Source: Nocardia sp. BMG51109 | Lineage (GTDB): Bacteria > Actinomycetota > Actinomycetes > Mycobacteriales > Mycobacteriaceae | Reading direction: 5' to 3' | Length of the DNA: 64,000 bases | Assembly (NCBI RefSeq): GCF_000526215.1 | Contig: NZ_JAFQ01000004.1 | Span: 186,001-250,000, forward strand | Part shown: in pieces, positions 10,587 to 40,598 of the stretch | Numbering within the stretch: position 1 is the stretch's first letter | How the letters are laid out: every line of letters starts with the position of its first letter | Program-made: the position numbers and the translations under genes | Notes under the pieces: generated by a model | Databases searched by the model: none | Seen by the model: the letters and a program-made list of their open reading frames with translations, nothing else | Told to the model about the DNA's origin: nothing

Positions 10587-10655
10587 TGCTTGGAGCTCCT
10601 AAAGAATGGTGTTCGACCGCGCCCGCTGGGAGCGCGATAATCATTGGCATCCGGA

Positions 10656-11414
10656 TCAGCGGATGGACGAACCGATTCCGAGGCCGCCGTCGACGTCGAG
10701 GACGACGCCGGTGACATAGCCGGCTGCGGGTGAGCAGAGGTAGGCGGCGGCTTCGGCGATATCGCGGGGATCGCCGGTGCGGCGCAGCGGAACCTTGGAG
10801 ACGAGTTTCTCGCGGGCCGGGCCGTTCATCGATGCGAGCATCGGCGTCTCGATCAGTCCGGGGGCGATGGCGTTGGCGGTGACGCCGTGACGGGCGCCTT
10901 CCAAGGCGATGGTGCGGGTGAGGCCGACGATCCCGGCCTTGGCTGCCACGTAGTTGGCCTGCCCGTAGTTGCCGCGCCAGCTCATCGAGGAGAAGGACAG
11001 GATGCGGCCGTAACCCTGCTCCTGCATGCTCGGCAGTACGGCGCGGAGGCAATAGAAGGCGGCCGAGAGGCTGGTGTCGAGCACGGCGTGCCAGTCGTCG
11101 TCGCTGATGTCGGTGGCGCGGTTGTCGCGGATGATCCCGGCATTGTTGACCAGGACGTCGATACGGTGACGGTCGGTGTACACCTGCTCGACCCACGCGT
11201 TCACCTCGCCCGACACGGTCACGTCGAGGACGTGCGCCGTGGCGTGGGTACCGTGTTTCTCGGTCAGCTCTTCGGCGAGCTCGGTACCGGTGGTCTCGTT
11301 GATCTCACCGATCATCACCGCAGCACCCTCGGCCGCGAAGCGGTGGGCCATCGCCCGCCCGAGCCCCTGACCGGCCCCGGTCACCAGAACTGTCTGTCCG
11401 GCATAGCGATTCAC
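10656..11414 (-). CDS. SDR-family 3-oxoacyl-(ACP/CoA) reductase-like
   Basis: A 252-residue short-chain dehydrogenase close to FabG. Motifs: TGAGQGLG (cofactor), NNAG, a serine at the SFSSMSW segment and YVAAK as YxxxK, then a C-terminal VLDVDGGLG typical of FabG-like enzymes. I use GTG 11414, which has AAGGAA nine bases upstream; the longer frame to 11483 is not supported. With the hydratase and acyl-CoA synthetase upstream it forms a likely acyl-CoA processing operon. Confidence 0.87.
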   Translation of the reverse strand: MNRYAGQTVLVTGAGQGLGRAMAHRFAAEGAAVMIGEINETTGTELAEELTEKHGTHATAHVLDVTVSGEVNAWVEQVYTDRHRIDVLVNNAGIIRDNRATDISDDDWHAVLDTSLSAAFYCLRAVLPSMQEQGYGRILSFSSMSWRGNYGQANYVAAKAGIVGLTRTIALEGARHGVTANAIAPGLIETPMLASMNGPAREKLVSKVPLRRTGDPRDIAEAAAYLCSPAAGYVTGVVLDVDGGLGIGSSIR

Positions 11415-11442
11415 GAATTTTCCTTTCTGGTGCGTAGCGAGC

Positions 11443-12228
11443 TCAGCTCGCCGCGCGACGGGTGAGGAACCGGCGTAAAGCACGCGGTACGTCGTGCGAG
11501 GCCCAGTGCCGGTCGAACGCGGCGAGCTCGAGCGACAGCCCCGCCTCGACCGCGGGCTGATCGTCGAGTTCGGCGAACAGCCGTTTCAGCGCCGACTGAG
11601 CCGGATTCGCTGCGGCGGCAAGAGTTTCCGCGACGCGCAGCCCCTCGGCCGCGCCCCTTCCCGGTTCGGCGACGCTGTGCAGCCACCCTGCGGTGAGGAA
11701 CCGCTCTGCGGGCAGTAACTCCCCGCTGAGACCGAGCCACCGGCCCATCGAGTCACCGAGTTTGCGGCGCATGCGCACTGCCGAGCCCGCGCCGGGTACC
11801 AGGTGGTTGCGGATGTGTCCGTCCCCGATCAGCGTGCCGCTCTCGGCCAGGACCGCATCGCAGGCCAACGCGATCTCCAGGCCGCCGGCGACCGCGTGCC
11901 CGTGCAGGACGGCCACGACGGGCAGCGGGCTGACCTCGATGCGCCGGGTGAGGTCGGAAACGGTGCGCAGGAACGGCACTGGCGACTCACCCGCCTCGGC
12001 GAGGGTCAGCAGATGCCGCAGATCGGCGCCCGCGCAGAAGCTGGGCCCCGCACCACGGATCAGCACCGCCCGGGTGGCCGGGTCGCGCTCGGCGGCGGCC
12101 AGCGCCTCGGCCAGTGCGTCGACCAGCGCGGGGTTCAACGCGTTGCGTTGCCGCGGCCGGCTGAGCACGAACGAGCGCACCGCGCCGATCTGCTCGACGA
12201 GCACCACGGGGTCCGACACGACGGTCAT
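11443..12228 (-). CDS. Enoyl-CoA hydratase/isomerase family protein
   Basis: A 261-residue crotonase-fold enzyme. The first oxyanion-hole region FCAGADL and the second HAVAGGLEIALACD are clear. It would hydrate or isomerise an enoyl-CoA made by the coupled acyl-CoA synthetase pathway. The ATG at 12228 overlaps the stop of the synthetase gene by 4 bp (ATGA). The order synthetase, hydratase, SDR fits a short beta-oxidation-like route. Confidence 0.85.
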   Translation of the reverse strand: MTVVSDPVVLVEQIGAVRSFVLSRPRQRNALNPALVDALAEALAAAERDPATRAVLIRGAGPSFCAGADLRHLLTLAEAGESPVPFLRTVSDLTRRIEVSPLPVVAVLHGHAVAGGLEIALACDAVLAESGTLIGDGHIRNHLVPGAGSAVRMRRKLGDSMGRWLGLSGELLPAERFLTAGWLHSVAEPGRGAAEGLRVAETLAAAANPAQSALKRLFAELDDQPAVEAGLSLELAAFDRHWASHDVPRALRRFLTRRAAS

Positions 12229-16096: not shown

Positions 16097-16348
16097 ATCA
16101 GCCTTTACACGACGGCGCAGCGATCCGGCGGGCGGCAGCCGCCTCGTTTGGTGCGCCTTCTCGGCATTTCCGAGCGTTCAGCGTGTCCGAGCCCGCACAC
16201 CAACCGATCCGCGATACTCCCCCACATGCGCAACGGTGCCGGCCAACCGATCGAACCCGGACCCCCACCACCAGCAACTCCGACGAACCAACAAACCAGA
16301 AGCAGACAGGCCAACGTCTGCCAACCGTGATGCCAAACCGACGGAAAA

Positions 16349-16377
16349 CGGCCCCGGAACCAGTGGTTCCGGGGCCG
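16349..16377 (-). terminator. tRNA-type terminator hairpin left at the island end
   Basis: Inverted repeat CGGCCCCGGAACC / GGTTCCGGGGCCG, followed on the minus strand by a short T-run. It is nearly the same as the hairpins behind the two intact tRNA-fMet genes at 40.5 and 40.9 kb. Here it sits behind a truncated tRNA only. Confidence 0.75.
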
Positions 16378-16387
16378 TTTCCGCTAG

Positions 16388-16431
16388 TAGCGGGGACAGG
16401 ATTTGAACCTGCGACCTCTGGGTTATGAGCC
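16388..16431 (-). pseudogene. tRNA-fMet 3'-half remnant
   Basis: Matches bases from the anticodon loop (CAT) to the discriminator of the intact tRNA-fMet genes at 40525-40598 and 40964-41037, but the D-arm and 5' acceptor strand are missing and replaced by island sequence. It cannot fold into a tRNA; it is the displaced 3' end left after integration. Confidence 0.88.
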
Positions 16432-16988: not shown

Positions 16989-17743
16989 GCACGCCGTGCT
17001 CGTGCAGTTCATTTCAGCGGCCGGACGGGTCATCCCAGTTGCGGACCGGTAGCGCACCTTTCCCTCCGCAGCCACCGGCGTCACTCGCCGATGTCGACGC
17101 TATTCGAGATAATGATTGGTCCGCCTACGCGAGGCTCGGGCAGTTGGAAGATCATTGGACTCTGAAGCCGTGGCCGACCGGTTATGCGGCGTACTACTGG
17201 TATCTGACCTTCGACGATCCGTCGCTGATTGCGTTGGCAGAGCACTGCCAGCGGCGCCTCGACCACCTTCGTCTGGATCCGGTTCCCCGCGATGGGTTTC
17301 ATGCGACTGTGCTGAAAGTCGCTGCAGCAGATGCCGTCGGTGCCGACGATCTGGAGGTGCTCGTTGCTGCGGCGCAGGCGCGGCTGGCTGACTTCGAGTC
17401 CTTCTCGTTGCAGGTTGGGCCGTTGACCGGTTCACCGAGCGCGGTGCGGTTCTCGCTGGCTCCGTGGGATCGGCTTTCGGTGTTGCATGCTCGCCTTCGG
17501 CAGAGTGTGATCGATGTCCGGCCGTCGTTACGTCCGCGGTCGACGAGCGAGTTCCGGCCGCACCTGGGAATTGCCTACAACAATCGACGTCGCCCTGCGG
17601 GCCCGGTCGTCGCCGATGTCGCACGACTGCGTGACGTCGATCCGGTCACGGAGTTCGTCCGGTCGGTGGCCCTGGTCCGGCTGGAGCGCGTCGATCACCA
17701 GTACCGGTGGGACGAGTGCGCAGTTATCGCACTTCAGTCCTAG
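16985..17743 (+). CDS. 2H phosphoesterase/2'-5' RNA ligase-like protein
   Basis: A 252-residue protein with the two signature tetrapeptides of the 2H fold: FHATVL (H-x-T) in the first half and RPHLGIAY (H-x-G type) in the second. Such enzymes open or seal 2',3'-cyclic or 2'-5' phosphodiester bonds in RNA or nucleotides. An N-terminal extension of about 60 residues precedes the fold. The ATG at 16985 is coupled to the RyR-like gene. Its 3' end overlaps the convergent HTH-TPR regulator by 20 bp. The second motif departs from a canonical H-x-[TS], so activity should not be assumed. Confidence 0.65.
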   Translation: MSTPCSCSSFQRPDGSSQLRTGSAPFPPQPPASLADVDAIRDNDWSAYARLGQLEDHWTLKPWPTGYAAYYWYLTFDDPSLIALAEHCQRRLDHLRLDPVPRDGFHATVLKVAAADAVGADDLEVLVAAAQARLADFESFSLQVGPLTGSPSAVRFSLAPWDRLSVLHARLRQSVIDVRPSLRPRSTSEFRPHLGIAYNNRRRPAGPVVADVARLRDVDPVTEFVRSVALVRLERVDHQYRWDECAVIALQS

Positions 17744-19064
17744 CCTCAGGCGTGGTCACGGGTTCGGCCTGTTCCGACCATTCGCGGAGCTGGTCGACAT
17801 AGTCGCGGACCTTGCCTGTCTTCACCGTGGTGACGGTTTCGGCGAGTTCGTGGGCACGTTGCCACACGGATCGGATGGGTCGGTCTCGTGAGGTGTCGAG
17901 TGCCTCACCTCCGAGGTCCATCGCGTGGTCGATGTCGCGATTGCGTTGTCGTACAAGGGCTGTCGCGACATCCAAGCGAACCAGCGATCGGCTCCACACC
18001 GAGTCCGATGCGTTGACTTGGTTTTCCACCAGCTGTCCGCATTCGAGTGCTTTGCTGTACTCGCCGGCCGACAAGTACGCGGTGGCTGCGTTGGCGAGCA
18101 GACGCGCCTCGCTGAAAGGCACGAACGCGAGCGCTGGTGTCAAACCGGAGGGGATTTCCACCGAGGACGCGGTCGACATAGCCGCGTCGATCGCGCGCTC
18201 GACACCCGTGGAATCTCCCATCTTCCCCAACGCACGCGCCAGCCCATTGGCATACAGGCGGATGACCTGGCTACCATCGTCTGCCCGTCGAATACCCTCC
18301 TGGGCGAATTCGACGGCGGCAGTGTAGTCACACTGGTAATACGCGCAGAAACTCTGCGTACCCCGAACCCATGCCTCCAGGTTCCGGTCCCGCAGGAAAC
18401 CCGCGATGGCGAGGGCTTCTTGTCCATAGATGGTGGCGTGACCGAATGCGCCGCGGTTGACAGCCATGTACGCGAGGACGCCCGATAGTTTGCAGGCCAG
18501 ACGATGTAACCGCTGCAATTGCTCGGGTTGGCGGCATTGCCCGACCAAGGATTCGACTTCTCGGCGCAACGAGCGTGCTTGCGGCGCCGACCGCACCGGC
18601 CCCTCGAGTTCGTATCGATCGAGGATGCCGCCCAGTGCAACTTCAGCAACGGCGATGACACCGTCGTCGACATCGCTGCTACGTAACCGCCGCATCCGCT
18701 GAATGATGTCCGTAGGCGTTTCGAACGCGGTCGTGTCCGGGGCCGGGACGGTGAGTGCCGTTGCCGCGCGGGAAGATTCGTGTCGCCCGGTCGCTGGCTT
18801 GTGGCGTGCCCGCCAGGACGTTTCTCCCTCGGCGATGATTTCGTCGAACCGCATGCGCTCGACGTCGGTTGCTCGTCTCTCCAGCGTGGTGTCGAGAATC
18901 GCCTGGGTAGCCGATCGAAGCGTTGCCGTACCCAAGCGCGACCGCCAGTTGGTGACCGTCGTCGTTTCCACTCCGAGGAGCGCGGCGTACTCACGGATGG
19001 ATTTGCGCATGGCTTCCTGCAAGGCGGCGGCTTCGAAGCCTGTCCATTCCCGTGCCCGCACCAT
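17724..19064 (-). CDS. HTH-TPR transcriptional regulator
   Basis: A 446-residue protein with an N-terminal helix-turn-helix (REYAALLGVETTTVTNWRSR, about residues 25-45) followed by long helical repeats of TPR type (for example GHATIYGQEALAIAGFLRDR and SAGEYSKALECGQLVENQV). This design is common for cluster-situated regulators in actinobacteria that sense a peptide or small ligand through the TPR part. It diverges from the cupin/peptide operon across a 450-bp gap and is its most likely regulator. ATG 19064 is preferred for its AGGTGGGG upstream; a GTG at 19073 would add three residues. Confidence 0.8.
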   Translation of the reverse strand: MVRAREWTGFEAAALQEAMRKSIREYAALLGVETTTVTNWRSRLGTATLRSATQAILDTTLERRATDVERMRFDEIIAEGETSWRARHKPATGRHESSRAATALTVPAPDTTAFETPTDIIQRMRRLRSSDVDDGVIAVAEVALGGILDRYELEGPVRSAPQARSLRREVESLVGQCRQPEQLQRLHRLACKLSGVLAYMAVNRGAFGHATIYGQEALAIAGFLRDRNLEAWVRGTQSFCAYYQCDYTAAVEFAQEGIRRADDGSQVIRLYANGLARALGKMGDSTGVERAIDAAMSTASSVEIPSGLTPALAFVPFSEARLLANAATAYLSAGEYSKALECGQLVENQVNASDSVWSRSLVRLDVATALVRQRNRDIDHAMDLGGEALDTSRDRPIRSVWQRAHELAETVTTVKTGKVRDYVDQLREWSEQAEPVTTPEARTEVR

Positions 19065-19471
19065 TTGCCCCACCTACGCACTCGATGCCCTACCAGGGAA
19101 AACCCCACAGTAGCCCTACGGTACCCCACCACTACGCGGTTACGCGGCTACTTCAGAGCCCGCGAAACTTGAAGGCAGGCACTCGAGGCGAAGCACCCTC
19201 TCAGCCCGCCGTTCACGCGAGACCCGTGACGCCTGCTGAACTGACGACAGCTTCGCACTCGCGCCGAGTGCATCCCAGATGACGAGGGGAGCAAAGCATG
19301 TCGTGGACACAGACCAGTTTCGCTATGCGACAGGCTTGACCGGGCGGACACCTTGGCAAGACCACCTCAAGACCGTTGGTGCGCTTGACATTTCGATACA
19401 ACACCCATCGGTCACGTCTCGACGAAACGCTTTCGATGGAGCGGAGTCCAACGGAACGGAAGGAGCCGACC
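19065..19471. promoter_or_regulatory. Long leader/promoter region of the peptide operon
   Basis: About 400 bp between the divergent HTH-TPR regulator and the first coding sequences of the peptide operon. A TTGACA hexamer near 19383 could be a -35 box, but no matching -10 is obvious at 17-18 bp. A 13-codon open frame with its own Shine-Dalgarno lies inside (separate entry), hinting at leader-mediated control. Confidence 0.4.
19298..19339 (+). CDS. Possible 13-residue leader peptide
   Basis: ATG at 19298 preceded by GAGGGGAGC at good distance, reading MSWTQTSFAMRQA and a stop. Too short to judge by composition; the Shine-Dalgarno and position in an operon leader are the only support. It could be an upstream regulatory ORF or chance. 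Confidence 0.3.
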   Translation: MSWTQTSFAMRQA

Positions 19472-19516
19472 GTGAAAAATCAGGTGACATCCCCGGAGAG
19501 GGGGCGAGTGACATGA
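19472..19516 (+). CDS. 14-residue upstream ORF coupled to the cupin gene
   Basis: GTG at 19472 with AAGGAG six bases upstream, reading MKNQVTSPERGRVT, and ending in a TGA that overlaps the cupin ATG (ATGA at 19513-19516). This is the best Shine-Dalgarno in front of the operon, and the overlap implies that ribosomes finishing this peptide restart on the cupin gene. It may only serve translational coupling. Confidence 0.5.
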   Translation: MKNQVTSPERGRVT

Positions 19517-20805
19517 CCGTTGCCGAAGAGACGGTGAAAACCTGGCCGCCCTCCCGCGAGTTCTGGTCTGACCGGTTCCGGTCCGAGACGGCCGGAGCGA
19601 CGGTTCCGGTGCTGTTCAAACATCTCGTTCCCACCGACGTGCTGGGACACGCGGAGGTGTTGGCAGGGCTGCAGCGTCTGCGCCGAGCGGCGGCCGACGG
19701 TGATCCCAGCTCTGCTCGCGCCAGGGTGTACGTCGGCGAGGATCGGCGAGACTCCCTGGTCGACACCGTGCTCGGCGCACCGTGGAACGGCGACGAGCCG
19801 TTCGTGTCGTGGATGCAACGCCTTACCGGCGCCGACCGGTTCAGTCTGGTCGTCAACAACCTCGAAACAACGTCTCCCATCCTGTCGTCGGTTCTCGGTC
19901 AGCTGGTCGAGTCGGCGTTCGGTGGCTGGGGCGTACCGATCGGCGGATGCGAGCAGGTCGCGTTCGCCGGCAACTACGCGGGCACCGCGTTCGGTGTACA
20001 CGAGGGGTACGAGGACGCATTCCTGGTGCATCTCGGCCCCGGAGTGAAGCACTTCTACTGCTGGTCCGGAGACCTGTACCGGGAGCTGACCGGTTCGGGC
20101 GCACCGACATTCGGTGACTACAGCTGGCTGCTGGATCACGGTCAGGTATTCCACCTGGAACCGGGTGACGTGTTGTTTCTGCCGCGGCGAGTCTTCCACG
20201 TCGGCGTGCAGGACGAGTACTCCGTGTCGATCGCTATCGCCTTCTACACCTATCCCGACTCCCGGCTCTTGGCCCGGTCGGTGCTTCCGACCGTGCTCGA
20301 GTCCGTGGTCGTCGACGACACTCCGTCGCCGATGTACCCCATCGACGGAGGCCCGGAGCCGGTCGCGGCGGCGCTGGCGATTGCTGCCAGTGACATGCTT
20401 GAAACCACGGAACGGGCTCTGCCGCAGCATGTTTACGCACAGGTGACGCAGCGGTGGCAGGCGGTGCTCAGCAACGGCGGCTGGGAGACCGTCGAGCACG
20501 ACCTGGGACGACTCGACAGCGCACGGGAAGCAGAAGCGGCACTCGCAGGCGGCGCGACCCGGATGCGGGTGCGTTCCCCGTTCCGGCTGTACGCCATCGA
20601 CGGCATCGACGATGCCCTCAGCATTCGAATCACTGTGCGCGGCATAACATTATCCGTTCCGGAGTCGCCGGACTGGGCCGCTGCCATATCCAGATTGGCT
20701 GCGGGCGAGACCATCACATTGACCGACGCTCTCCACGGTGACGCACTGTGGGATCTGTTGCGCACCGGCGGAATTGACGTTCTCACCGTCACCAAGGAGC
20801 CGTGA
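19513..20805 (+). CDS. Cupin/JmjC-like (Cupin_4) protein with altered metal triad
   Basis: A 430-residue protein whose middle part looks like the JmjC/Cupin_4 fold of Fe(II)/2-oxoglutarate protein hydroxylases (YcfD, MINA53 relatives): VHEGYEDAFLVHLGPGVKH at residues 162-180 and LEPGDVLFLPRRVFHVG with the distal histidine at 229. In hydroxylases of this fold the first motif is H-x-D; here it reads His163-Glu164-Gly165, so the acidic ligand seems replaced by Gly, as in iron/2OG halogenases. That alignment is by eye. ATG 19513 is coupled to the upstream 14-residue ORF; a longer frame to 19279 lacks support. First enzyme gene of the operon that encodes the repeat peptide, so the peptide is the natural substrate guess. 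Confidence 0.7.
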   Translation: MTVAEETVKTWPPSREFWSDRFRSETAGATVPVLFKHLVPTDVLGHAEVLAGLQRLRRAAADGDPSSARARVYVGEDRRDSLVDTVLGAPWNGDEPFVSWMQRLTGADRFSLVVNNLETTSPILSSVLGQLVESAFGGWGVPIGGCEQVAFAGNYAGTAFGVHEGYEDAFLVHLGPGVKHFYCWSGDLYRELTGSGAPTFGDYSWLLDHGQVFHLEPGDVLFLPRRVFHVGVQDEYSVSIAIAFYTYPDSRLLARSVLPTVLESVVVDDTPSPMYPIDGGPEPVAAALAIAASDMLETTERALPQHVYAQVTQRWQAVLSNGGWETVEHDLGRLDSAREAEAALAGGATRMRVRSPFRLYAIDGIDDALSIRITVRGITLSVPESPDWAAAISRLAAGETITLTDALHGDALWDLLRTGGIDVLTVTKEP

Positions 20806-20810
20806 TCACC

Positions 20811-21644
20811 ATGTCCGTGTCGAAGGTCCAGTCCTATCTGGACCAGCATCCAGCGACTCACACCGTGATCAGCAAAGTCCTGCGGAACGGGGCGGCCGAC
20901 ATCAGCGGGGACGAGTTGGTCGACAAGCACCTGGTCCCCGTGATGGACAATGTCTTCGCGCAAATCACCGAGGAAGTATCGCCCGAGACTCTGACACGAG
21001 ACCAGGCTGCCTTGTATATCAGGGAGCTGAGTGTCTTCGCTCGCTACAACGCTGATTTCCTGCGCCGGGCCGCCGATGCAGTGCAGGGCGGGTGCATGGA
21101 ACTCGCGCACGAGTTCCGCCGCAACCATCTGGAGGAGGGCGGCGAGCGCGGGAAGGTCCCTGCACACTACACCCTGTACTCCGGTGCACTGCTGACCGAT
21201 TTGGGTCTGCTGGTCAACGGTCACGTTCCTGCGCCGGAGACGGTGACGCTGGTGTCGCTACACGATTGGTTGGTCGATGGGTCGTCGGTCAGTCGGATCT
21301 GCGGGGGCTATTACGCGACCGAGGGCGTCGCCATCAACGAAACCGTGCTGTTGCGGTCGATCACCGACCGCTACGGGCGGCTCGCTGTCGGCAAGGCGAG
21401 CGGCCAACTGCCGCAACTGGACTACTACTACTACTCACTGCACCTCGATGAAGGCCACGAAGCCGCGACCGTCGAAGGGCTGAGCGTCGAAGCGGCCCAC
21501 ATCGAGGGCATCGCCCGCTTCATTCGCGAGTACCAGCTGTTCGGTCTCGATCTTCCGCAGATCGTCGATGGCTGGCTGCAAATCCTCGACGGCATGGCCC
21601 ACTGGTGGTCCGGCCTGACTGCTCGCGCCCGTTCCACGACCTGA
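20811..21644 (+). CDS. Heme-oxygenase-like diiron oxidase (HDO/TenA-PqqC fold)
   Basis: A 277-residue all-helical protein. Candidate metal ligands lie in MELAHEFRRNH (Glu97, His100, His106) and HLDEGHEAATVEGL (His211, Glu214, His216, Glu217), the spacing seen in 'iron-containing redox enzyme' members of the heme-oxygenase-like fold. These perform oxygen-dependent C-H, C-C or N-oxidation chemistry. ATG 20811 lies 11 bp behind AAGGAG; a GTG at 20802 overlaps the cupin stop and would add three residues. It immediately precedes the repeat-peptide gene, consistent with a peptide-modifying role (inference). Confidence 0.68.
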   Translation: MSVSKVQSYLDQHPATHTVISKVLRNGAADISGDELVDKHLVPVMDNVFAQITEEVSPETLTRDQAALYIRELSVFARYNADFLRRAADAVQGGCMELAHEFRRNHLEEGGERGKVPAHYTLYSGALLTDLGLLVNGHVPAPETVTLVSLHDWLVDGSSVSRICGGYYATEGVAINETVLLRSITDRYGRLAVGKASGQLPQLDYYYYSLHLDEGHEAATVEGLSVEAAHIEGIARFIREYQLFGLDLPQIVDGWLQILDGMAHWWSGLTARARSTT

Positions 21645-21700
21645 CCCGCGCGGTCCCGCGAGGCAAAGCAGTTGTCTCGCACGGTGAAAGGAGAAAGAAA

Positions 21701-21859
21701 GTGAACAACACCCTGAAGTCCGGTGTTCGGCCCGACGCCAGCCTCAAGGCAGGTGTCCGGCCGGACACCATGAAAGCCGGTGTGCGGCCCGACGCCGTGC
21801 TCAAGACCGGTGTGCGGCCCGACGCCGTGAAGACCGGCATCCGCCCCGACGTGTCCTGA
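21701..21859 (+). CDS. Repeat-containing precursor or scaffold peptide (candidate RiPP precursor)
   Basis: A 52-residue peptide, GTG start with AAAGGAG seven bases upstream. After five residues (MNNTL) it consists of five units: KSGVRPDASL, KAGVRPDTM, KAGVRPDAVL, KTGVRPDAV, KTGIRPDVS. Every unit contains K-[SAT]-G-[VI]-R-P-D, and unit lengths alternate 10, 9, 10, 9, 9. There are no Cys, Trp, Tyr, His or aromatic residues and no recognisable leader. It is surrounded by three putative iron oxygenases, an amidinotransferase and an adenylate-forming synthetase-like enzyme, so I read it as a multi-core ribosomal peptide substrate or a carrier scaffold. A longer frame starting at 21605 exists but starts inside the upstream gene and lacks a Shine-Dalgarno. 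Confidence 0.8.
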   Translation: MNNTLKSGVRPDASLKAGVRPDTMKAGVRPDAVLKTGVRPDAVKTGIRPDVS

Positions 21860-21875
21860 ATCCTCGGCGGGGACT

Positions 21876-21906
21876 CGGTGCCCGCGCGACTGCCGTGCGG
21901 GCACCG
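21876..21906 (+). terminator. Intra-operon hairpin after the repeat-peptide gene
   Basis: A perfect 10-bp stem (CGGTGCCCGC at 21876-21885 with GCGGGCACCG at 21897-21906, 11-nt loop), 17 bp beyond the peptide stop and about 80 bp before the desaturase start. Placed to cut down transcription into the downstream genes and so raise peptide over enzyme levels. Confidence 0.6.
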
Positions 21907-21987
21907 GGGAACACCGGTCGCGGCACACCCTCCGCGTCGGTGGGGTGCGCCACAACTCGCTTCGTTTCGAATTCCCGGAGTTGCCCC

Positions 21988-23013
21988 ATGACAGTCAACC
22001 TGCAGAAACCTCGCCGCCGGCCGTCGGCCGGTGCCTCCGGACCGGTGCGGCGCGCACTGGGGCCAGAACTGACCCAGCGACTGGATGACTTGTGCGCCCG
22101 TAGCCGCTCGGAAGGCCCGATGGATGTGGTGCGCGACTACGCAGTCGTCGCAGCGACCGCCGCATTAGGCACCGCTGTCGGCCACCCGGCCGCGTCACTG
22201 GCGTGCGCGAGTTACATCGGTGTGCGCCAACGTCACCTGTCCAACCTCACCCATGAGTGCATCCACACCAAGCTCACACGATCCCGGCGCGCCAACCTGC
22301 TACTAGGGCACGTCCTTACCATCACGCTCGGGGAACCGTTCACGCCCTACAAACGAAGCCACCGCCTCCACCACGCCAAACTCGGCTCACCGGACGACCC
22401 GATGCTGCAGTCGTACCTGTCGCGCAACGCGCACCACCCGCGACCGAGCAAGGCAGCGTTCGCCTTTCACGTCCTCGCCCGCAACGCCGTCTCCACCCTG
22501 CCCGCGTCCGCAATGGTGAAGCTCGCAGGGAAGTCGCCGGACGAAAGCTGGGGCGCGGCGCTGGCACGCTGGAGCCTCTGGTCGGCCGCTACCGCGTCCG
22601 CAGCCGCTACCGGCCGACTGGGCGCCTTCGCCCTCTACTGGGCGATCCCGTTGATCGTCGTCCGTCCGGCAGTGACCTGGCTGACCGATCTCGGCAACCA
22701 TGCCGGGCTGATCGAGAACGACGACCCGTTCCGGCAGACCCGCGGCTGGACCTCACACTGGCTGACCCGGCATCTGCTCGGCGGTCACAACGACGACATG
22801 TATCACCCGGTACACCACCTCCTTCCCAACGTCGGCTGGCGCCAGCTCCCGGAAGCCGAACGCCTCCTGCGCCGCGAGTACGCCGGCTGGGCCGAGGTGG
22901 CGTGGTGCAGCGGGTTCTTCGTCCGCCGTCGGTCCACCCCCGACATCCCCAGCGTTCTCGACGACATCGTCACCCGGTTGCAGCCCATCAACAACGGCCG
23001 CAATTCGTACTGA
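21988..23013 (+). CDS. Membrane diiron fatty-acid-desaturase-family enzyme
   Basis: A 341-residue member of the membrane desaturase/hydroxylase family. All three histidine boxes are present: HECIH, HRLHH (in TPYKRSHRLHHAK) and HPVHH (in MYHPVHHLLPN), plus an additional NHAG histidine. Hydrophobic segments lie between the first and second box and around residues 195-230. ATG 21988 follows CCCGGAG. Relatives act on lipids but also on amino-acid and peptide-type substrates (for example in rhizobitoxine formation). Its place just after the repeat-peptide gene makes peptide or amino-acid oxidation more likely than lipid desaturation. Confidence 0.8.
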   Translation: MTVNLQKPRRRPSAGASGPVRRALGPELTQRLDDLCARSRSEGPMDVVRDYAVVAATAALGTAVGHPAASLACASYIGVRQRHLSNLTHECIHTKLTRSRRANLLLGHVLTITLGEPFTPYKRSHRLHHAKLGSPDDPMLQSYLSRNAHHPRPSKAAFAFHVLARNAVSTLPASAMVKLAGKSPDESWGAALARWSLWSAATASAAATGRLGAFALYWAIPLIVVRPAVTWLTDLGNHAGLIENDDPFRQTRGWTSHWLTRHLLGGHNDDMYHPVHHLLPNVGWRQLPEAERLLRREYAGWAEVAWCSGFFVRRRSTPDIPSVLDDIVTRLQPINNGRNSY

Positions 23014-23065
23014 TCGCCGAACTTCACACCGAGCACGTCTCACCGCCGTCTCAAACAGGACAGCC

Positions 23066-24175
23066 ATGACCCAGCCCAGCCACAGCATCAATAGCTTCGA
23101 CGAGTGGACCCGCCTGGAGGAAGTGATCGTCGGCGACCCCGCGTCCTATACCTCCCACCACCTCGACACCAGCTTCCAGCTGTTCTACCTCGACAACGTC
23201 ACCCCCGACCCGAGCATCGGCCGCGAGCTGGCGATCCCCTCCCGCCTGGTCGACGAATTGGCAGAAGATGTCGACGGCTTTGTACAAGCCCTCGGCGATC
23301 TCGGCGTGCGAGTGCTGCGCCCGCAGCCGGTCACCGACCGTGCCACGATCTGCTCACCGTGGTGGAACGCGGTGGAGACGCCGCCGCTGAATGTCCGGGA
23401 CCAGACAATCGTGCTCGGCGACACGATCGTCGAAACCGCGCCACACATCCGCGGGCGGGTGTTCGAGAACGACTACCTCAAGCCCCTGTTCTATGGCTAC
23501 CTTGCCCGTGGCTGCGGCTGGCTGGCGATGCCCCGGCCCGCGCTGGCCCGCGCCTCGCTCGACACTGGGTACCACGACGCGCACGACTTCGATCTCACCG
23601 GACTGGTCGAAGACCCCGCGACCCGGCCTATCCCCGGACTCGGACACGAACTGATCTTCGACGGCGCACAATGCATGCGATTCGGGCTCGACATCCTGGT
23701 CAATATCGCCAACGCCAACCACCGGCTCGGCTTCGACTGGCTGCGTCGCACCCTGCCGCAGTTCCGATGGCATCGCCTCGACGCCGTTGCCGACAGCCAC
23801 ATCGACAGCATCATCGTCCCGCTCCGGCCCGGCCTGCTGATGCTGCGCTCCCCCGATTACCTAAACACCCTGCCGGAGCCTTTGCAACGGTGGGACATCA
23901 TGTACCCGCCCGAGCAGGACGAGTCCGTCTTCCCCGACTACAGCGACTTCGGATTCAATCTGACCAGCCGCTACATCGACATCAACGTGCTGTCGGTCGA
24001 TGAAGAGACCGTCATCGTGAACTCACTGTGCCCGGACCTTATGCGCACGTTGGAAAAGCACGGACTCACCGTCGTACCGGTCCAGCACCGCCACCGCCGG
24101 TTGTTCGGCGGCGGATTCCATTGCTTCACCCTCGACACCGCCCGCGCAGGTACCGCAGAGGACTACTTCGCCTGA
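23066..24175 (+). CDS. Glycine-amidinotransferase-family enzyme
   Basis: A 369-residue protein of the amidinotransferase (AGAT/StrB1) fold: N-terminal DEWTRLEEVIVGDP is the standard family opening, a central DSHID carries the catalytic His, and GGGFHCFTLDT near the end holds the nucleophilic Cys at about residue 353. Such enzymes move an amidino group from arginine to an amine, leaving ornithine. In this operon candidate acceptors are a small amine or the lysine side chains of the repeat peptide (which would become homoarginine); both are inference. The ATG at 23066 follows AGGACA, 52 bp after the desaturase. Confidence 0.88.
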   Translation: MTQPSHSINSFDEWTRLEEVIVGDPASYTSHHLDTSFQLFYLDNVTPDPSIGRELAIPSRLVDELAEDVDGFVQALGDLGVRVLRPQPVTDRATICSPWWNAVETPPLNVRDQTIVLGDTIVETAPHIRGRVFENDYLKPLFYGYLARGCGWLAMPRPALARASLDTGYHDAHDFDLTGLVEDPATRPIPGLGHELIFDGAQCMRFGLDILVNIANANHRLGFDWLRRTLPQFRWHRLDAVADSHIDSIIVPLRPGLLMLRSPDYLNTLPEPLQRWDIMYPPEQDESVFPDYSDFGFNLTSRYIDINVLSVDEETVIVNSLCPDLMRTLEKHGLTVVPVQHRHRRLFGGGFHCFTLDTARAGTAEDYFA

Positions 24176-24204
24176 CCCGTACTCGTGACGAAAGGCCACC
24201 GACC

Positions 24205-25083
24205 GTGCTCGACAACGACACCATCACCGTCAAGTCCGAACTGCTGTGGAGCCTCCACAATATGCTCCACGACGAAGGATTCAAGGAGCTTGTCACACCC
24301 ACGTTCCGGCGTGCCGACGATCTGACCGGCAACCGCCCGACCGCTACCGTCGGCGCGCCCGGGTATCTACGCAGCATGATCGGGCCCGCACTGCGATACA
24401 ACCTCCAATACACACCCCGCATCTACGAGATCGGACCGTGCTTCCGCACCGATATCCCCGACGCCACCCACAACCGCGAATTCTCCATGCTCGACCTCTA
24501 CGCCGCCGACGAGGACTACACCTACCTACTCGATTTGGCAGAGCGGATGGTGCGACTGGCGTACTCCGGCGACATAGTCCACTTGTCGGTCGCAGACCAC
24601 GTCTGGACCACTCTGGGGATCGATCTCAAGAACGAACCGCTCGAATCGCACGTCCTCGCCGACCACCTCGCAATGCCGGCCGAAACTCCGCTCCCCGCAC
24701 TGCTCGATGCCTATCTGCACTCCGAGATCGAGCCACTGACTCTCGGCTGCGCCACCTTTCTGGTCGACTTGCCGCTGGGAGGAAACGAACCATGCGCTCG
24801 GCGCCGCCCCGACACTGTCGCCGTCCTCAACCGGTTCGAGGTATTCATCGACGGAATCGAGGTTATCCACGGTTACGAAGACGAGACCAACACCCACGAA
24901 TTCCTCACCCGCGCCTCCGCAATCGACCTCTACAACGCCGAACAACACCTGGTCCAGCAGGCCATCCTCGCCGGCACCGTCCCCGCAGCCAGCGTGGGGC
25001 TCGGCATCGGCATCGAACGACTGTGCATGGCCGCCAGCGGCATCCGCGACATCCACCGATTCCTGCACTCGGCATGTTTCTAG
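24205..25083 (+). CDS. Free-standing class II aminoacyl-tRNA-synthetase-like enzyme (LysRS/EpmA-like)
   Basis: A 292-residue catalytic domain without an anticodon-binding domain. Class II motif 2 is at about residues 74-99 (YEIGPCFRTD…HNREFSMLDLY) and motif 3 at about 265-274 (GLGIGIERLC). The HN-x-EF-x-ML pattern is that of lysyl-tRNA synthetase and its paralogue EpmA, which attaches beta-lysine to a protein lysine. It therefore probably adenylates an amino acid and passes it to a non-tRNA acceptor. GTG 24205 has GAAAGG upstream and begins 30 bp after the amidinotransferase; an ORF extending further upstream overlaps that gene. Because each unit of the repeat peptide carries one lysine, an EpmA-like acylation is an attractive but untested idea. 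Confidence 0.78.
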   Translation: MLDNDTITVKSELLWSLHNMLHDEGFKELVTPTFRRADDLTGNRPTATVGAPGYLRSMIGPALRYNLQYTPRIYEIGPCFRTDIPDATHNREFSMLDLYAADEDYTYLLDLAERMVRLAYSGDIVHLSVADHVWTTLGIDLKNEPLESHVLADHLAMPAETPLPALLDAYLHSEIEPLTLGCATFLVDLPLGGNEPCARRRPDTVAVLNRFEVFIDGIEVIHGYEDETNTHEFLTRASAIDLYNAEQHLVQQAILAGTVPAASVGLGIGIERLCMAASGIRDIHRFLHSACF

Positions 25084-25198
25084 TCAACGAGCATAAGTCC
25101 GATCGGACACGGTTCTACGCTGGTCGCGCGCGAGCACCGGACGCCTCGACCAGGGGCCGAGACGACGCAGTCACAACACCGACCATAAGGAGACTTTG

Positions 25199-25576
25199 AT
25201 GTACGAAGGCGGCTGCCTGTGCGGGCAGATCCGATATCGCACAACCGGAAAACCCGACTGGCCGCACCTGTGCTCCTGCCCGCACTGCCAGAAACTCGGC
25301 GGATGCCCGGTCATGGCCTGGGTCGACTTCGCAAACGACACCTTCGAATGGACGGGCCCCGGCGGCGAGCCCCACTGGTACGCCACCTTCCCAACCACCC
25401 GACGAGGATTCTGCCCGACCTGCGGCAGCACCGTCGCCGCACTCGACGACGACGCCGAAATGATGGGCGTGACACTGATGTCCCTCGACGACCACACCAG
25501 CCTCGTGCCCGAGCACCAGTCCTTCAAGGACCACGCCGTCCGGTGGTTGCCCGTACTCGCTACGACGGACGAATGA
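25199..25576 (+). CDS. GFA-family zinc protein (glutathione-dependent formaldehyde-activating enzyme-like)
   Basis: A 125-residue protein with the GFA/Mss4-like zinc sites: GGCLCGQIRYR near the N-terminus, CSCPHCQ, and FCPTCGS in the C-terminal half. ATG 25199 has AAGGAG six bases upstream. Family members include the formaldehyde-glutathione adduct enzyme and CENP-V-like proteins; function here is open. It lies about 115 bp after the synthetase-like gene in the same direction, so may belong to the operon, possibly scavenging formaldehyde or another reactive product of the oxygenases (inference). Confidence 0.8.
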   Translation: MYEGGCLCGQIRYRTTGKPDWPHLCSCPHCQKLGGCPVMAWVDFANDTFEWTGPGGEPHWYATFPTTRRGFCPTCGSTVAALDDDAEMMGVTLMSLDDHTSLVPEHQSFKDHAVRWLPVLATTDE

Positions 25577-25630
25577 CATTTCGCCCGGCCTTGTCGGCGC
25601 ACCCACACCGCGATGAACTGCCGGGGACCA

Positions 25631-26815
25631 ATGCCCAGTAGTCAGACCACCGCTCTGCTGGCTGATCTTGCCCTTATCCTGGTGGCTGCCCGCGTATTCG
25701 GCTGGATGGCCGAACGGATCGGTCAGCCTCCCGTGGTCGGCGAGATCACTGCCGGAATCCTCGCCGGACCGACCATTCTCGGCACCTGCCTGTCCGCGTC
25801 CGTGTTTCCCCCCGATGTACGCCCGTCGATCGCCGCGCTGGCGAACGTCGGTATCACGCTGTTCATGTTCGTCGCCGGACTCGGAACCGACATGCGGGTG
25901 TTCTCACAAGCGCGGAACACGGTACTGGTCGTGTCACTGTCGGCATACGCCGCACCGTTCGCACTCGGATGCGGCGTCGCGGCGACAGTGCTGGCCCGGC
26001 ACCACAGCATCGGCCAGGCCGAGTTCGTGGCATTCGTCGGATGTGCGTTGGCGGTCACCGCGTTTCCTGTACTGGCCCGAATCCTGCACGACCGGCGCAT
26101 GTTCGACACCCCCGCTGGCCAGCTCGCCCTCGGCTGCGCAGCGGTCGAGGATGTCCTGGCCTGGGTTCTACTCGCCGCCATCATCGCCACCGCCGACACC
26201 GGAAACCATCAGCAATGGCGGCTTCTACTGCTCATCCCGCTCCTCGCAGGGACTCGGTGGATTGTGCGGCCGCTACTGACACGTACAGCGAAGGACACCA
26301 ATGACGTCTCGGCATGGCTGGTCGCGGTCTGCGGCGCATTGCTGTGGGGCGCGGCGACCGAATGGGCCGGACTGCACCTCATCTTCGGCGCCTTTCTGTT
26401 CGGCGTCGCGTTCCCCTCCGAACTCCGGGCCGCCGCCGACGCCGGGATCCAGCCACTCGCTCAGCTGTTACTGCCCTGCTTCTTCGTCATCGCTGGCCTA
26501 CAAGTCGACCTCACATCCATCGACACCGCCGCAGCCGCAGAACTCGCAGCGCTCATCACGTGCGCCGTAGTAGGAAAAGCAGGCGCCGCCTATCTCGCTG
26601 CCCGCTTGACCGGGACCAGCGCCCAGGACGCACGCATACTCGCAGTACTGCTCAACACTCGGGGACTGACCGAGCTGATCCTCCTCAATGTCGGGATGGC
26701 CGCGGGAATCATCGGCTCGCAACTGTATTCGCTGCTCGTCGTGATGGCCTTGGTCACCACTGCGGCCACCGCACCACTACTGAACGCGGTACGATCAGTC
26801 GAGGCTGGCGGATAA
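25631..26815 (+). CDS. CPA2-family cation:proton antiporter
   Basis: A 394-residue integral membrane protein with about 11-12 hydrophobic segments. It shows the family start (RIGQPPVVGEITAGILAGP), the central CALAVTAFPVLARIL segment and the paired-helix region LNTRGLTELILLNVG. No C-terminal TrkA-N domain is attached. It would exchange Na+ or K+ for H+; antiporters of this type also appear in natural-product clusters as putative exporters. ATG 25631 is chosen (GGGGA just upstream); ATG 25613 is possible. Its 3' end overlaps the convergent AlkC-like gene by 21 bp, marking the end of the operon. Confidence 0.83.
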   Translation: MPSSQTTALLADLALILVAARVFGWMAERIGQPPVVGEITAGILAGPTILGTCLSASVFPPDVRPSIAALANVGITLFMFVAGLGTDMRVFSQARNTVLVVSLSAYAAPFALGCGVAATVLARHHSIGQAEFVAFVGCALAVTAFPVLARILHDRRMFDTPAGQLALGCAAVEDVLAWVLLAAIIATADTGNHQQWRLLLLIPLLAGTRWIVRPLLTRTAKDTNDVSAWLVAVCGALLWGAATEWAGLHLIFGAFLFGVAFPSELRAAADAGIQPLAQLLLPCFFVIAGLQVDLTSIDTAAAAELAALITCAVVGKAGAAYLAARLTGTSAQDARILAVLLNTRGLTELILLNVGMAAGIIGSQLYSLLVVMALVTTAATAPLLNAVRSVEAGG

Positions 26816-27946
26816 CGCGGCATTGTGAATCTGGAATCCGACGTCGGCAACGCGCGTGCCGTTGATCTGGATGTGGAGGTGCCCGGGTCCAGGGCCGAGC
26901 CGGCGACTCGCAGTCGGCCGCAGCGTCTGTCTCTTGGAGAGGACGACTTGCTCACCGGCAGGCAGATCGAGGGTCTTGAGCTTGAACACGGCTTCTCCAC
27001 AGCTACCGGTCGAGGCCCGTGCATACTGGACAACAAAGTCGATCATCACGCGTTCCGCTCTCCGCGCACGAACAGACACGGTGAAAGCCAGGTCGCCGCC
27101 CAAAGCGATGTCATTCGCCTCCAATGCCAAGCTCACCACCTCGACAGCAGGTGACGTCGATAGCCCCAGGAACTCAAAGGCACCATAGTGGCCCTGTTTA
27201 ATCAGGGTCCGCAGCGCCTGCCGAACAATAAAATCCATTTCACGAGGACTCTGCGTTCCCAAGTCGCGCCAACGTTCCAACGTCGCCAACACTAATTCGG
27301 GATCGATGCGTGAAATGTCATTGAGGTGATTGGCCACCGACTGCGTAACGAAACGGTGCTCGTCTGAAAAAAGGTTGTCGAGAACAGGAATCGCCGATGT
27401 CACATGCAACGCAATACGCGGCGACCACGGCAGCAACGGGCGGGTTCCCTCGCTAGCCAGGCGGCGGACATGGTAATCCGAATCGACACTCCACGCCGTC
27501 ACCGACGCTAGCGTCTCGTCCGGGAAAGCATTCAGAAAGTACCGCAGGGCATCCTCTGCCGTGAAGTGCTTCGTCATCTCCGCTAATGCATCCAGCGAGG
27601 TTCTAAGATGTGGCCGCGCACACCCATACCGGGCAACGAAATCAGAGTAGGGCGCATATGTGTACAGGCCGAAGTCGGGCCCGCGAAAGTTTGCGTCGTC
27701 GTGGGCCGGCAAGGCCGATACGACAACCTCGATGGCCCTCTCGATATCTCCAGGCAGGTATTCGGCGAGTTTGTCTGCCACCCAGGCGACCCGCGCCTTC
27801 AGCTCCAGCTGCGGAAGCTTCGCCACAACAGCAGACACGAACCCACCAGCGTCGAATCCTGGATAGACCGCCGCAAGATCCGCAGCGATGACCTGAACCC
27901 GCGCCGGACTAATCGCAGTCTCTTTTAGCGGAACCCCCATGCCCAT
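26795..27946 (-). CDS. AlkC-like DNA alkylation repair protein
   Basis: A 383-residue HEAT-repeat protein. The segments HVRRLASEGTRPLLPWS and VANHLNDISRIDPELVL are the hallmarks of the AlkC branch of the AlkD/AlkC glycosylases, which excise 3-methyladenine and related alkylated bases. The last 100 residues form an additional beta-rich, immunoglobulin-like domain also known in AlkC proteins. Start is uncertain between ATG 27946 and 27940. The gene is noticeably less GC-rich than its neighbours. Being next to the peptide operon, it could give self-protection against an alkylating product, or be independent island cargo. Confidence 0.8.
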   Translation of the reverse strand: MGMGVPLKETAISPARVQVIAADLAAVYPGFDAGGFVSAVVAKLPQLELKARVAWVADKLAEYLPGDIERAIEVVVSALPAHDDANFRGPDFGLYTYAPYSDFVARYGCARPHLRTSLDALAEMTKHFTAEDALRYFLNAFPDETLASVTAWSVDSDYHVRRLASEGTRPLLPWSPRIALHVTSAIPVLDNLFSDEHRFVTQSVANHLNDISRIDPELVLATLERWRDLGTQSPREMDFIVRQALRTLIKQGHYGAFEFLGLSTSPAVEVVSLALEANDIALGGDLAFTVSVRARRAERVMIDFVVQYARASTGSCGEAVFKLKTLDLPAGEQVVLSKRQTLRPTASRRLGPGPGHLHIQINGTRVADVGFQIHNAALSASLD

Positions 27947-28240
27947 GACAGAGTTATAGCACGAACACACATAGAGCCTCGGACATGAGTAGTCCGATCT
28001 CTGCCACAGTCATCGCCGACCGTCGACAACTGCCGCTCCCGACCGGTCACTGCTCACAAAAGCCTTGTCGCTCACCGCAGTTCGGGCATAGCCGCAGACC
28101 AGGGCGGGCCGGTCATCGCGGGGGACGAGGTCGTCCGGTTTCCGGGCCGACCATGGCCCGGTATCTCGCCTCGATCACTGGGCGGGTCTGCCGGACCAAG
28201 TCGGTGTATCCGGGAGTGCGGGACATCTGCGCCGGATGTG

Positions 28241-28537
28241 CCCGGTGGATCAGGCTACGGCTCTCGCGCCAACCGCGCCTACCTGCGTGAACGTGGAATC
28301 AAGGCCACGATCCCGGTGAAGGCGGATCAGGCGGCCAACCGGAAGAACAAAGGCTCCGCCGGTGGCCGGCCACCCGCGTTCGACGCCGAACGATACAAGT
28401 ACCGTCACGCCGTCGAGTGCGGCATCGGCCAGCTGAAGGAAAACCGTGCCATGGCAACCAGATACGACAAACTCGCAGTCCGCTACCAGGCCACCGTCCA
28501 CATCACCGCCATCAACCAATGGCTCCGACATGGGTGA
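28241..28537 (+). pseudogene. IS5-family transposase, C-terminal remnant
   Basis: Translates as GYGSRANRAYLRERGIKAT, then IPVKADQAANRKNKGSAGGR, then YKYRHAVECGIGQLKENR and a typical WLR ending. This is the C-terminal third of an IS5-type DDE transposase, with the last catalytic Glu in the VECGIGQLK segment. The N-terminal two thirds and catalytic Asp residues are missing; 27971-28240 holds only broken or unrecognisable sequence. A dead insertion sequence. Confidence 0.78.
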
Positions 28538-40464: not shown

Positions 40465-40568
40465 GTGATGCCAAACCGAACGAAAAACGGCCCCGGAACC
40501 ATGGTTCCGGGGCCGTTTCCCTAGTAGCGGGGACAGGATTTGAACCTGCGACCTCTGGGTTATGAGCC
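40465..40568. repeat. Right attachment-site repeat of the genomic island
   Basis: Direct-repeat partner of 16327-16431. The portion 40521-40568 is identical to the left copy and forms the 3' half of the intact tRNA-fMet gene. The outward portion includes the terminator hairpin and GTGATGCCAAACCG. A second GATGCCAAAC lies at 40454-40463, a possible integrase arm-type site pair. Confidence 0.88.
40488..40515 (-). terminator. Terminator of the first tRNA-fMet gene
   Basis: Inverted repeat CGGCCCCGGAACCATGGTTCC… closing with CGGGGCCG, followed on the minus strand by a TTTTT run. It lies 9 bp behind the tRNA 3' end. Confidence 0.85.
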
Positions 40569-40598
40569 CAGCGAGCTACCGAACTGCTCCACCCCGCG
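40525..40598 (-). tRNA. Initiator tRNA-fMet (CAT), copy 1, rebuilt by the island
   Basis: A 74-nt cloverleaf: acceptor CGCGGGG with CCCCGC, D-loop GGAGCAGTTCGGTAGCTC, anticodon arm TGGG-CTCATAA-CCCA and T-arm CAGG-TTCAAAT-CCTG. The three G:C pairs next to the anticodon loop and the unpaired first base (C1 opposite T72) are initiator features. CCA is not encoded. Its 3' half is supplied by the island's attachment site, so integration leaves the gene functional. Confidence 0.93.

Follow-up and report, generated by a model that had tools for sequence, protein, structure and literature searches.

In a 64,000-nucleotide stretch of the Nocardia sp. BMG51109 genome (contig NZ_JAFQ01000004.1, positions 186,001 to 250,000; here called the window), a gene for a small repeat peptide lies inside an apparent operon of oxidative and amino-acid-type enzymes. 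The finding is real and probably represents a new family of ribosomally synthesized and post-translationally modified peptides (RiPPs), a gene-encoded precursor standing beside modifying enzymes. Our preferred reading, to which we give a probability of about 55%, is a new multi-core RiPP family whose precursor is nearly leaderless; a JmjC protein and a heme-oxygenase-like diiron oxidase (HDO) of the DUF3865 type are predicted to oxidise Arg or Lys of the repeats. An earlier note on this DNA had proposed a ribosomal-peptide pathway on a genomic island. The comparisons below support such a pathway well, since the repeat ORF is kept in all 24 loci with a full-length HDO. However, the other suggestion made there, that the peptide undergoes guanidine chemistry and receives aminoacyl groups, is weaker than implied because Nostoc loci lack the amidinotransferase and the desaturase, and one of them also lacks the ligase resembling lysyl-tRNA synthetase (LysRS).

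The 52-residue peptide (VNNTLKSGVRPDASLKAGVRPDTMKAGVRPDAVLKTGVRPDAVKTGIRPDVS) is encoded on the plus strand at 21701-21856 (21701..21859 with the stop codon). It starts with GTG, preceded by AAAGGAG, and consists of five K-x-G-[V/I]-R-P-D repeats behind a stub of 4 residues, with no evident leader and without Cys or His. ORF, ribosome-binding site and Tandem Repeats Finder, which detected the array independently, agree on the peptide as originally described. A DNA pattern for one repeat, which ends in an Ala codon and can thus match only 3/5 repeats, gave 3 matches in the 8.8-Mb genome, all within the peptide gene, and 0 for the reversed control.

HDO homologues were found in 7/150 Nocardia genomes and full-length ones in 4/295 Streptomyces genomes, two further of which hold only C-terminal remnants of 60-63 residues and no peptide. 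When the repeat pattern was searched in genomes of both genera, clustered tandem matches appeared in 7/148 Nocardia and 4/295 Streptomyces genomes, exactly the 11 of 443 genomes with full-length HDO (the genome draws of both searches agree in both genera as far as listed). For the resulting distribution of 11/0/0/432, Fisher's test gives p = 3.5e-22 with kinship ignored. The background consists of isolated single pattern matches in 4 Nocardia and 14 Streptomyces genomes and of one palindromic double match (genome G681), and the reversed-pattern control matches singly as well. Twelve plasmid records carry the HDO (10 Streptomyces, 2 Nostoc), and the repeat peptide is present in 12/12. Together with one other actinomycete (G244), these 7 Nocardia genomes, 4 Streptomyces genomes and 12 plasmids make up the 24 loci. 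An absent or degenerate repeat ORF in otherwise conserved operons had been named as the observation that would refute the pathway; only in one plasmid (L062) are the repeats split between two frames. Counting the window's own genome each time, the HDO occurs in 3/394 genomes of the class and, using a Nostoc query, in 2/396 genomes of the phylum; the JmjC protein was found in 1/35 genomes of another family. A database search for the peptide itself led to 6 candidates and, from these, to no more than 3 metagenome peptides. In one scan of viral contigs with an HDO alignment, 23 stretches fitted the pattern, but there was no relative among them.

Each peptide carries 4-10 repeats across the loci. 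Unit statistics were taken from 27 peptides, 24 from loci (L062 excluded, the HDO-free plasmid L065 included) and 3 from metagenomes, which together hold 142 units anchored on G, R and P of G-x-R-P. In these units the K position is K in 137/142 (E 2, Q 2, T 1), the D position is D in 128/142 (G 13, A 1) and the residue following G is mainly M (84) or V (51). When [LVM]K.G served as sole anchor (24 peptides), R and P followed in 128/130 sites, the two exceptions being T and V in the degenerate first unit of two related peptides. Among 333 within-gene unit pairs, 25 differences in the D codon fall at position 3 and 4 elsewhere, and for the K codon the counts are 17 at position 3 and 14 at positions 1 and 2 summed; the anchored G, R and P columns are excluded from these counts. 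Purifying selection acts on the repeats. The N-terminal stubs measure 1-14 residues in 22/24 peptides and 23 residues in two (L062 by its first frame), and because they are so short the peptide is close to leaderless.

Next to the peptide, the 24 loci hold genes for JmjC (24), HDO (24), the LysRS-like ligase (23), the desaturase (22), the amidinotransferase (22) and a GFA-family protein (21). The two Nostoc loci combine peptide, JmjC, HDO and GFA without desaturase and amidinotransferase. In place of these two enzymes, the locus without the LysRS-like gene (L042) has an amidotransferase and an adenylation-carrier-reductase protein, and the other has the LysRS-like ligase and a PLP (pyridoxal phosphate) decarboxylase. 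Peptide, JmjC and HDO, possibly with GFA, form the constant set that would define the core step, and amidinotransferase, ligase and desaturase may act later or on a side branch, two of them being missing in Nostoc. The order is JmjC-HDO-peptide-desaturase-amidinotransferase-ligase in Nocardia, and in Streptomyces a divergent ligase followed by peptide-desaturase-amidinotransferase-JmjC-HDO-GFA. Uncut Streptomyces plasmid clusters add a TauD dioxygenase, an arginine-deiminase-family protein and a nitroreductase. A ligase of this type can occur without the peptide: the repeat ORF was found in 0/11 loci with distant LysRS-like relatives (25-40% identity) in the genome collection.

The JmjC_2 (PF08007) protein (19513..20805, plus strand) reaches 27 bits against a cut-off of 22. 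Its structure model (pLDDT 92.2, pTM 0.89) has the fold of ribosomal oxygenases (ROX) and matches them from end to end; in the fold search the top seven matches by Z are all YcfD of E. coli or Rhodothermus (17.8-19.4), followed by NO66, MINA53 and JMJD5 (about 15.7). The iron motif reads H163-E164-G165 ... H229, an HxG with Gly165 at the place of the metal-binding acid. H163 and H229 are kept, and K179, by analogy the likely 2-oxoglutarate (2OG) site, is nearly always kept. All 26 copies at the loci have HxG (HEG 24/26, HRG 2/26), as have 120/120 listed homologues of the 144 found (P0150 read by eye, as the automated pattern had not caught it). The family does not have the YcfD-type HxD...H triad and its iron site is altered, as seen in the alignments; the protein carries the HxG/A...H motif of 2OG radical halogenases. 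YcfD and RoxA, the L16 arginyl hydroxylases, share the fold, but the JmjC protein is only 14-15% identical to them, has HxG instead of HxD and is clustered with its own peptide gene. In relatives outside the family, on plasmids of Pantoea and S. goshikiensis, HKD stands at the HxG position. The Pantoea gene lies in a small cluster (L066, 5781-11142) with two cupins, an arginase-family protein, a GNAT and an MFS protein, and that of S. goshikiensis in one (L067, 6776-11065) with two cupins, an MFS protein and a 2OG oxygenase.

The HDO gene (PF12981; 20811..21644, plus strand) follows directly. Pfam, alignments and fold search assign the product to the heme-oxygenase-like fold with a set of 3 His and 3 carboxylates, and residues E108/E109, H119, E171, H211, E227 and H230, which we take to be the metal ligands, are invariant. 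The nearest solved structure is 3b5p (24%), a protein of unknown function. BesC, HrmI, CADD and MboA share the fold and the His/Glu set, but the HDO of the window belongs to the DUF3865 subfamily and is tied to a ribosomal peptide. Several HDO members act on Lys or Arg; MboA is one of them, its target being the Arg of a tripeptide (PMC13185094).

The remaining enzymes of the operon are less constant. The membrane diiron desaturase/hydroxylase (PF00487; 21988..23013, plus strand) keeps all eight His of its invariant boxes. Its identity as GntB, the guanitoxin Arg hydroxylase, was rejected as the score lies far under the cut-off (109.3 against 380 bits). The amidinotransferase (23066..24175, plus strand) is closest to StrB1 (1bwd; E 2e-44), followed by HsvA, SxtG and AGAT; D199, H245 and C353 are invariant and presumably correspond to the AGAT/StrB1 triad. 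The class II LysRS/EpmA-like ligase (24205..25083, plus strand) shares the class II core and the catalytic Arg of motifs 2 and 3 with EpmA and LysRS and, like EpmA, has no anticodon-binding domain. Its scores stay below the cut-offs for genX (83.3 against 286.9 bits) and lysS (80 against 428). Two Glu of the LysRS pocket, in the roles we assume for them, are Asp, and the lysine-pocket Glu at the MLE position is Asp in 24/24 sequences (the L054 copy is frameshifted in its C-terminal part); this would fit a substrate that is cationic but not identical to lysine. An EpmA-type modification of Lys as the main step is weakened, as the ligase is missing in L042 and Lys stays. The GFA-family zinc protein (PF04828; 25199..25576, plus strand) has seven Cys that are invariant in 21 copies. 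Its gene is missing or cut in L014 (contig end), L041 and L062. In the latter two, which are Streptomyces plasmids, a short GFA-fragment ORF stands ahead of integrase genes (region ~9816-11500), as if the GFA gene had been interrupted.

In the proposed pathway the precursor would be an array of 4-10 L-K-x-G-[V/M]-R-P-D units in tandem, and every unit would serve as substrate and core. The YcfD-fold JmjC enzyme, presumably Fe(II)- and 2OG-dependent with its HxG site, would recognise G-[V/M]-R-P and oxidise the Arg side chain, either by hydroxylation or by halogenation via the open iron site. The HDO would next oxidise the same or a neighbouring residue by desaturation, C-C scission or N-oxygenation, and GFA may handle a one-carbon or electrophilic by-product. 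In actinomycetes the desaturase could add a hydroxylation, the amidinotransferase a guanidine transfer and the LysRS-like ligase an amino acid; general proteases, which serve many RiPPs, would free the peptide units. Arg is the likeliest target because G-x-R-P is the best-kept part of the unit and the nearest JmjC folds are peptidyl-Arg hydroxylases; we infer this target, the order of steps, the by-product and the release.

Several observations weigh against this reading. Lys may be the target instead, since K as well as R is conserved (137/142 units), and a YcfD fold shared at such low identity does not fix the JmjC substrate. GFA is not strictly needed, as it is truncated or missing in 3/24 loci. 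Decaying copies exist (L055, L056, L064, L065, L062), of which plasmid L065 has peptide and JmjC without HDO and plasmid L064 JmjC alone. The peptide has no classical leader, no match to a RiPP recognition element (RRE) family appeared in Pfam/NCBIfam scans of the cluster proteins, and neither a dedicated protease nor a peptide exporter was found in the window cluster.

Among the alternatives, the best placed, though still unlikely, is that the peptide does not form the backbone of the product but is a carrier, used again and again, for the assembly and later release of a small modified Arg or Lys derivative, the ligase charging or extending the units. Peptide-scaffold pathways exist, as that of 3-thiaglutamate. 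The nearly identical units ending in small residues, the amino-acid-type enzymes (amidinotransferase, LysRS-like ligase, HDO), the lack of an exporter in the window cluster and the adenylation-carrier-reductase protein paired with peptide, JmjC and HDO in a Nostoc locus all fit a carrier. However, there is no C-terminal attachment motif, it is the internal repeats and not the C-terminus that are conserved, and of the two Nostoc loci neither has the amidinotransferase and one lacks the LysRS-like gene.

More doubtful is a variant of the RiPP reading in which JmjC is a radical halogenase that chlorinates Arg or Lys of the peptide, followed by BesC-like scission or desaturation of the chlorinated residue by the HDO with GFA taking up formaldehyde, to give vinyl-chloride, alkene or alkyne side chains on peptides or on amino acids released from them. 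In terminal-alkyne amino acid synthesis an HxG 2OG enzyme, BesD, stands beside the HDO BesC, as in this cluster, but BesD is not of JmjC/ROX fold and the pair acts on free Lys, not on a ribosomal peptide. We know of no radical halogenase of the JmjC/ROX fold. HxG is described as typical of 2OG radical halogenases, yet AspH carries HxG and hydroxylates, and two-ligand FIH active-site variants stay active (PMC11186838, PMC12816917). HxG was therefore rejected as proof of halogenation.

Less probable again is a pathway from free amino acids to a small guanidino compound, in which the peptide is no substrate of the enzymes and instead has a role in regulation, metal buffering or immunity. Relatives of most of the enzymes (StrB1/AGAT, GntB-like, BesC/HrmI folds) do act on free amino acids, but the peptide tracks JmjC and HDO perfectly and not the amidinotransferase, the nearest JmjC folds act on proteins, and the window peptide has no Cys or His to bind metal. 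Although the gene is short, repetitive and sometimes unannotated, a chance or annotation artefact, that is a tandem DNA array without coding role, was rejected as extremely improbable, because Nocardia, Streptomyces and Nostoc share both the protein repeat and the enzymes beside it, codon changes at D and K fall mostly in the third position, the phase is kept with a ribosome-binding site and the genome-wide pattern counts agree.

The RiPP reading was also compared with known systems. YcaO, LanM, radical SAM and lasso enzymes, whose absence the earlier note had stated, and MNIO are absent from the Pfam/NCBIfam matches of ten window proteins. MNIO (DUF692) peptides and the nitrilobacillins combine a ribosomal peptide with iron oxygenases (PMC13060819), but no MNIO, asparagine-synthetase-like or HExxH enzyme was found in Pfam/NCBIfam scans of the cluster. 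The mangotoxin (mbo) cluster uses an HDO and an arginine deiminase/amidinotransferase-type enzyme on a peptide Arg, but its tripeptide comes from ATP-grasp ligases and is not ribosomal (PMC13185094). In our searches of the open-access literature we found no paper describing this cluster and no description of an HxG-JmjC and HDO pair with a ribosomal peptide. If true, our reading adds a widespread RiPP-like family of actinomycetes and cyanobacteria, based on a repeat precursor with hardly any leader and on the pair of HxG-JmjC and HDO. The repeat peptide offers a ready substrate to settle the chemistry of the HxG ROX fold and HDO action on ribosomal peptides.

Family scans recovered the enzyme set and gene series as claimed, JmjC - HDO - peptide - desaturase - amidinotransferase - LysRS-like - GFA - antiporter, with gaps of 5, 56, 128, 52, 29, 115 and 36 bp. 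JmjC most likely starts at the ATG at 19513 and not at 19472, as had been assumed; from the GTG at 19472 a different frame is read, which ends after 14 codons. The short ORF (19472-19516, plus strand) has its own AAGGAG and overlaps the JmjC start, its stop TGA lying within ATGA; translational coupling or a leader function is possible. The divergent regulator, predicted to combine helix-turn-helix and tetratricopeptide repeat (TPR) domains, is present as an NsdA-family TPR protein (17724..19073, minus strand; family scan) but is not a constant partner, with no match upstream in six other Nocardia loci. The same holds for the CPA2 cation:proton antiporter (25613..26815, plus strand), which is in the operon as stated but occurs in only 11/24 loci and was not found with the clusters of the six other Nocardia loci; in one of these genus members (L013) a 45-residue antiporter match lies 3 kb beyond the cluster. 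A HEAT-like/DNA_alkylation-family protein (26795..27970, minus strand), which the earlier note did not mention, stands near the cluster in 19/24 loci of Nocardia and Streptomyces, full-length in 18 and in two pieces in one, and possibly serves self-protection. A PADLOC scan of eight proteins gave no defence-system match at 0.01. Directly downstream of the cluster lies a transposase-like fragment (28238-28537, plus strand), its family judged by eye.

The operon is carried by a 24-kb island integrated at tRNA-Met in the 8.8-Mb genome (4 contigs), which supports the island proposed earlier. At the right boundary a tyrosine integrase (PF00589; 39337..40437, plus strand; family scan) abuts tRNA-Met(CAT) (40524..40598, minus strand), and at the left end an attachment-site-like copy of the tRNA-Met 3' half plus flank (16319..16431) is 95.6% identical over 114 columns. 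GC content is 63.8% in the island (16346-40598) against 70.2% at 41100-64000, and the 16 kb left of the island are likewise low (64.3%). A third partial tRNA-Met copy (88%; G000:C4:165042-165114) lies ~21 kb beyond the left end of the window, so that islands may be stacked here.

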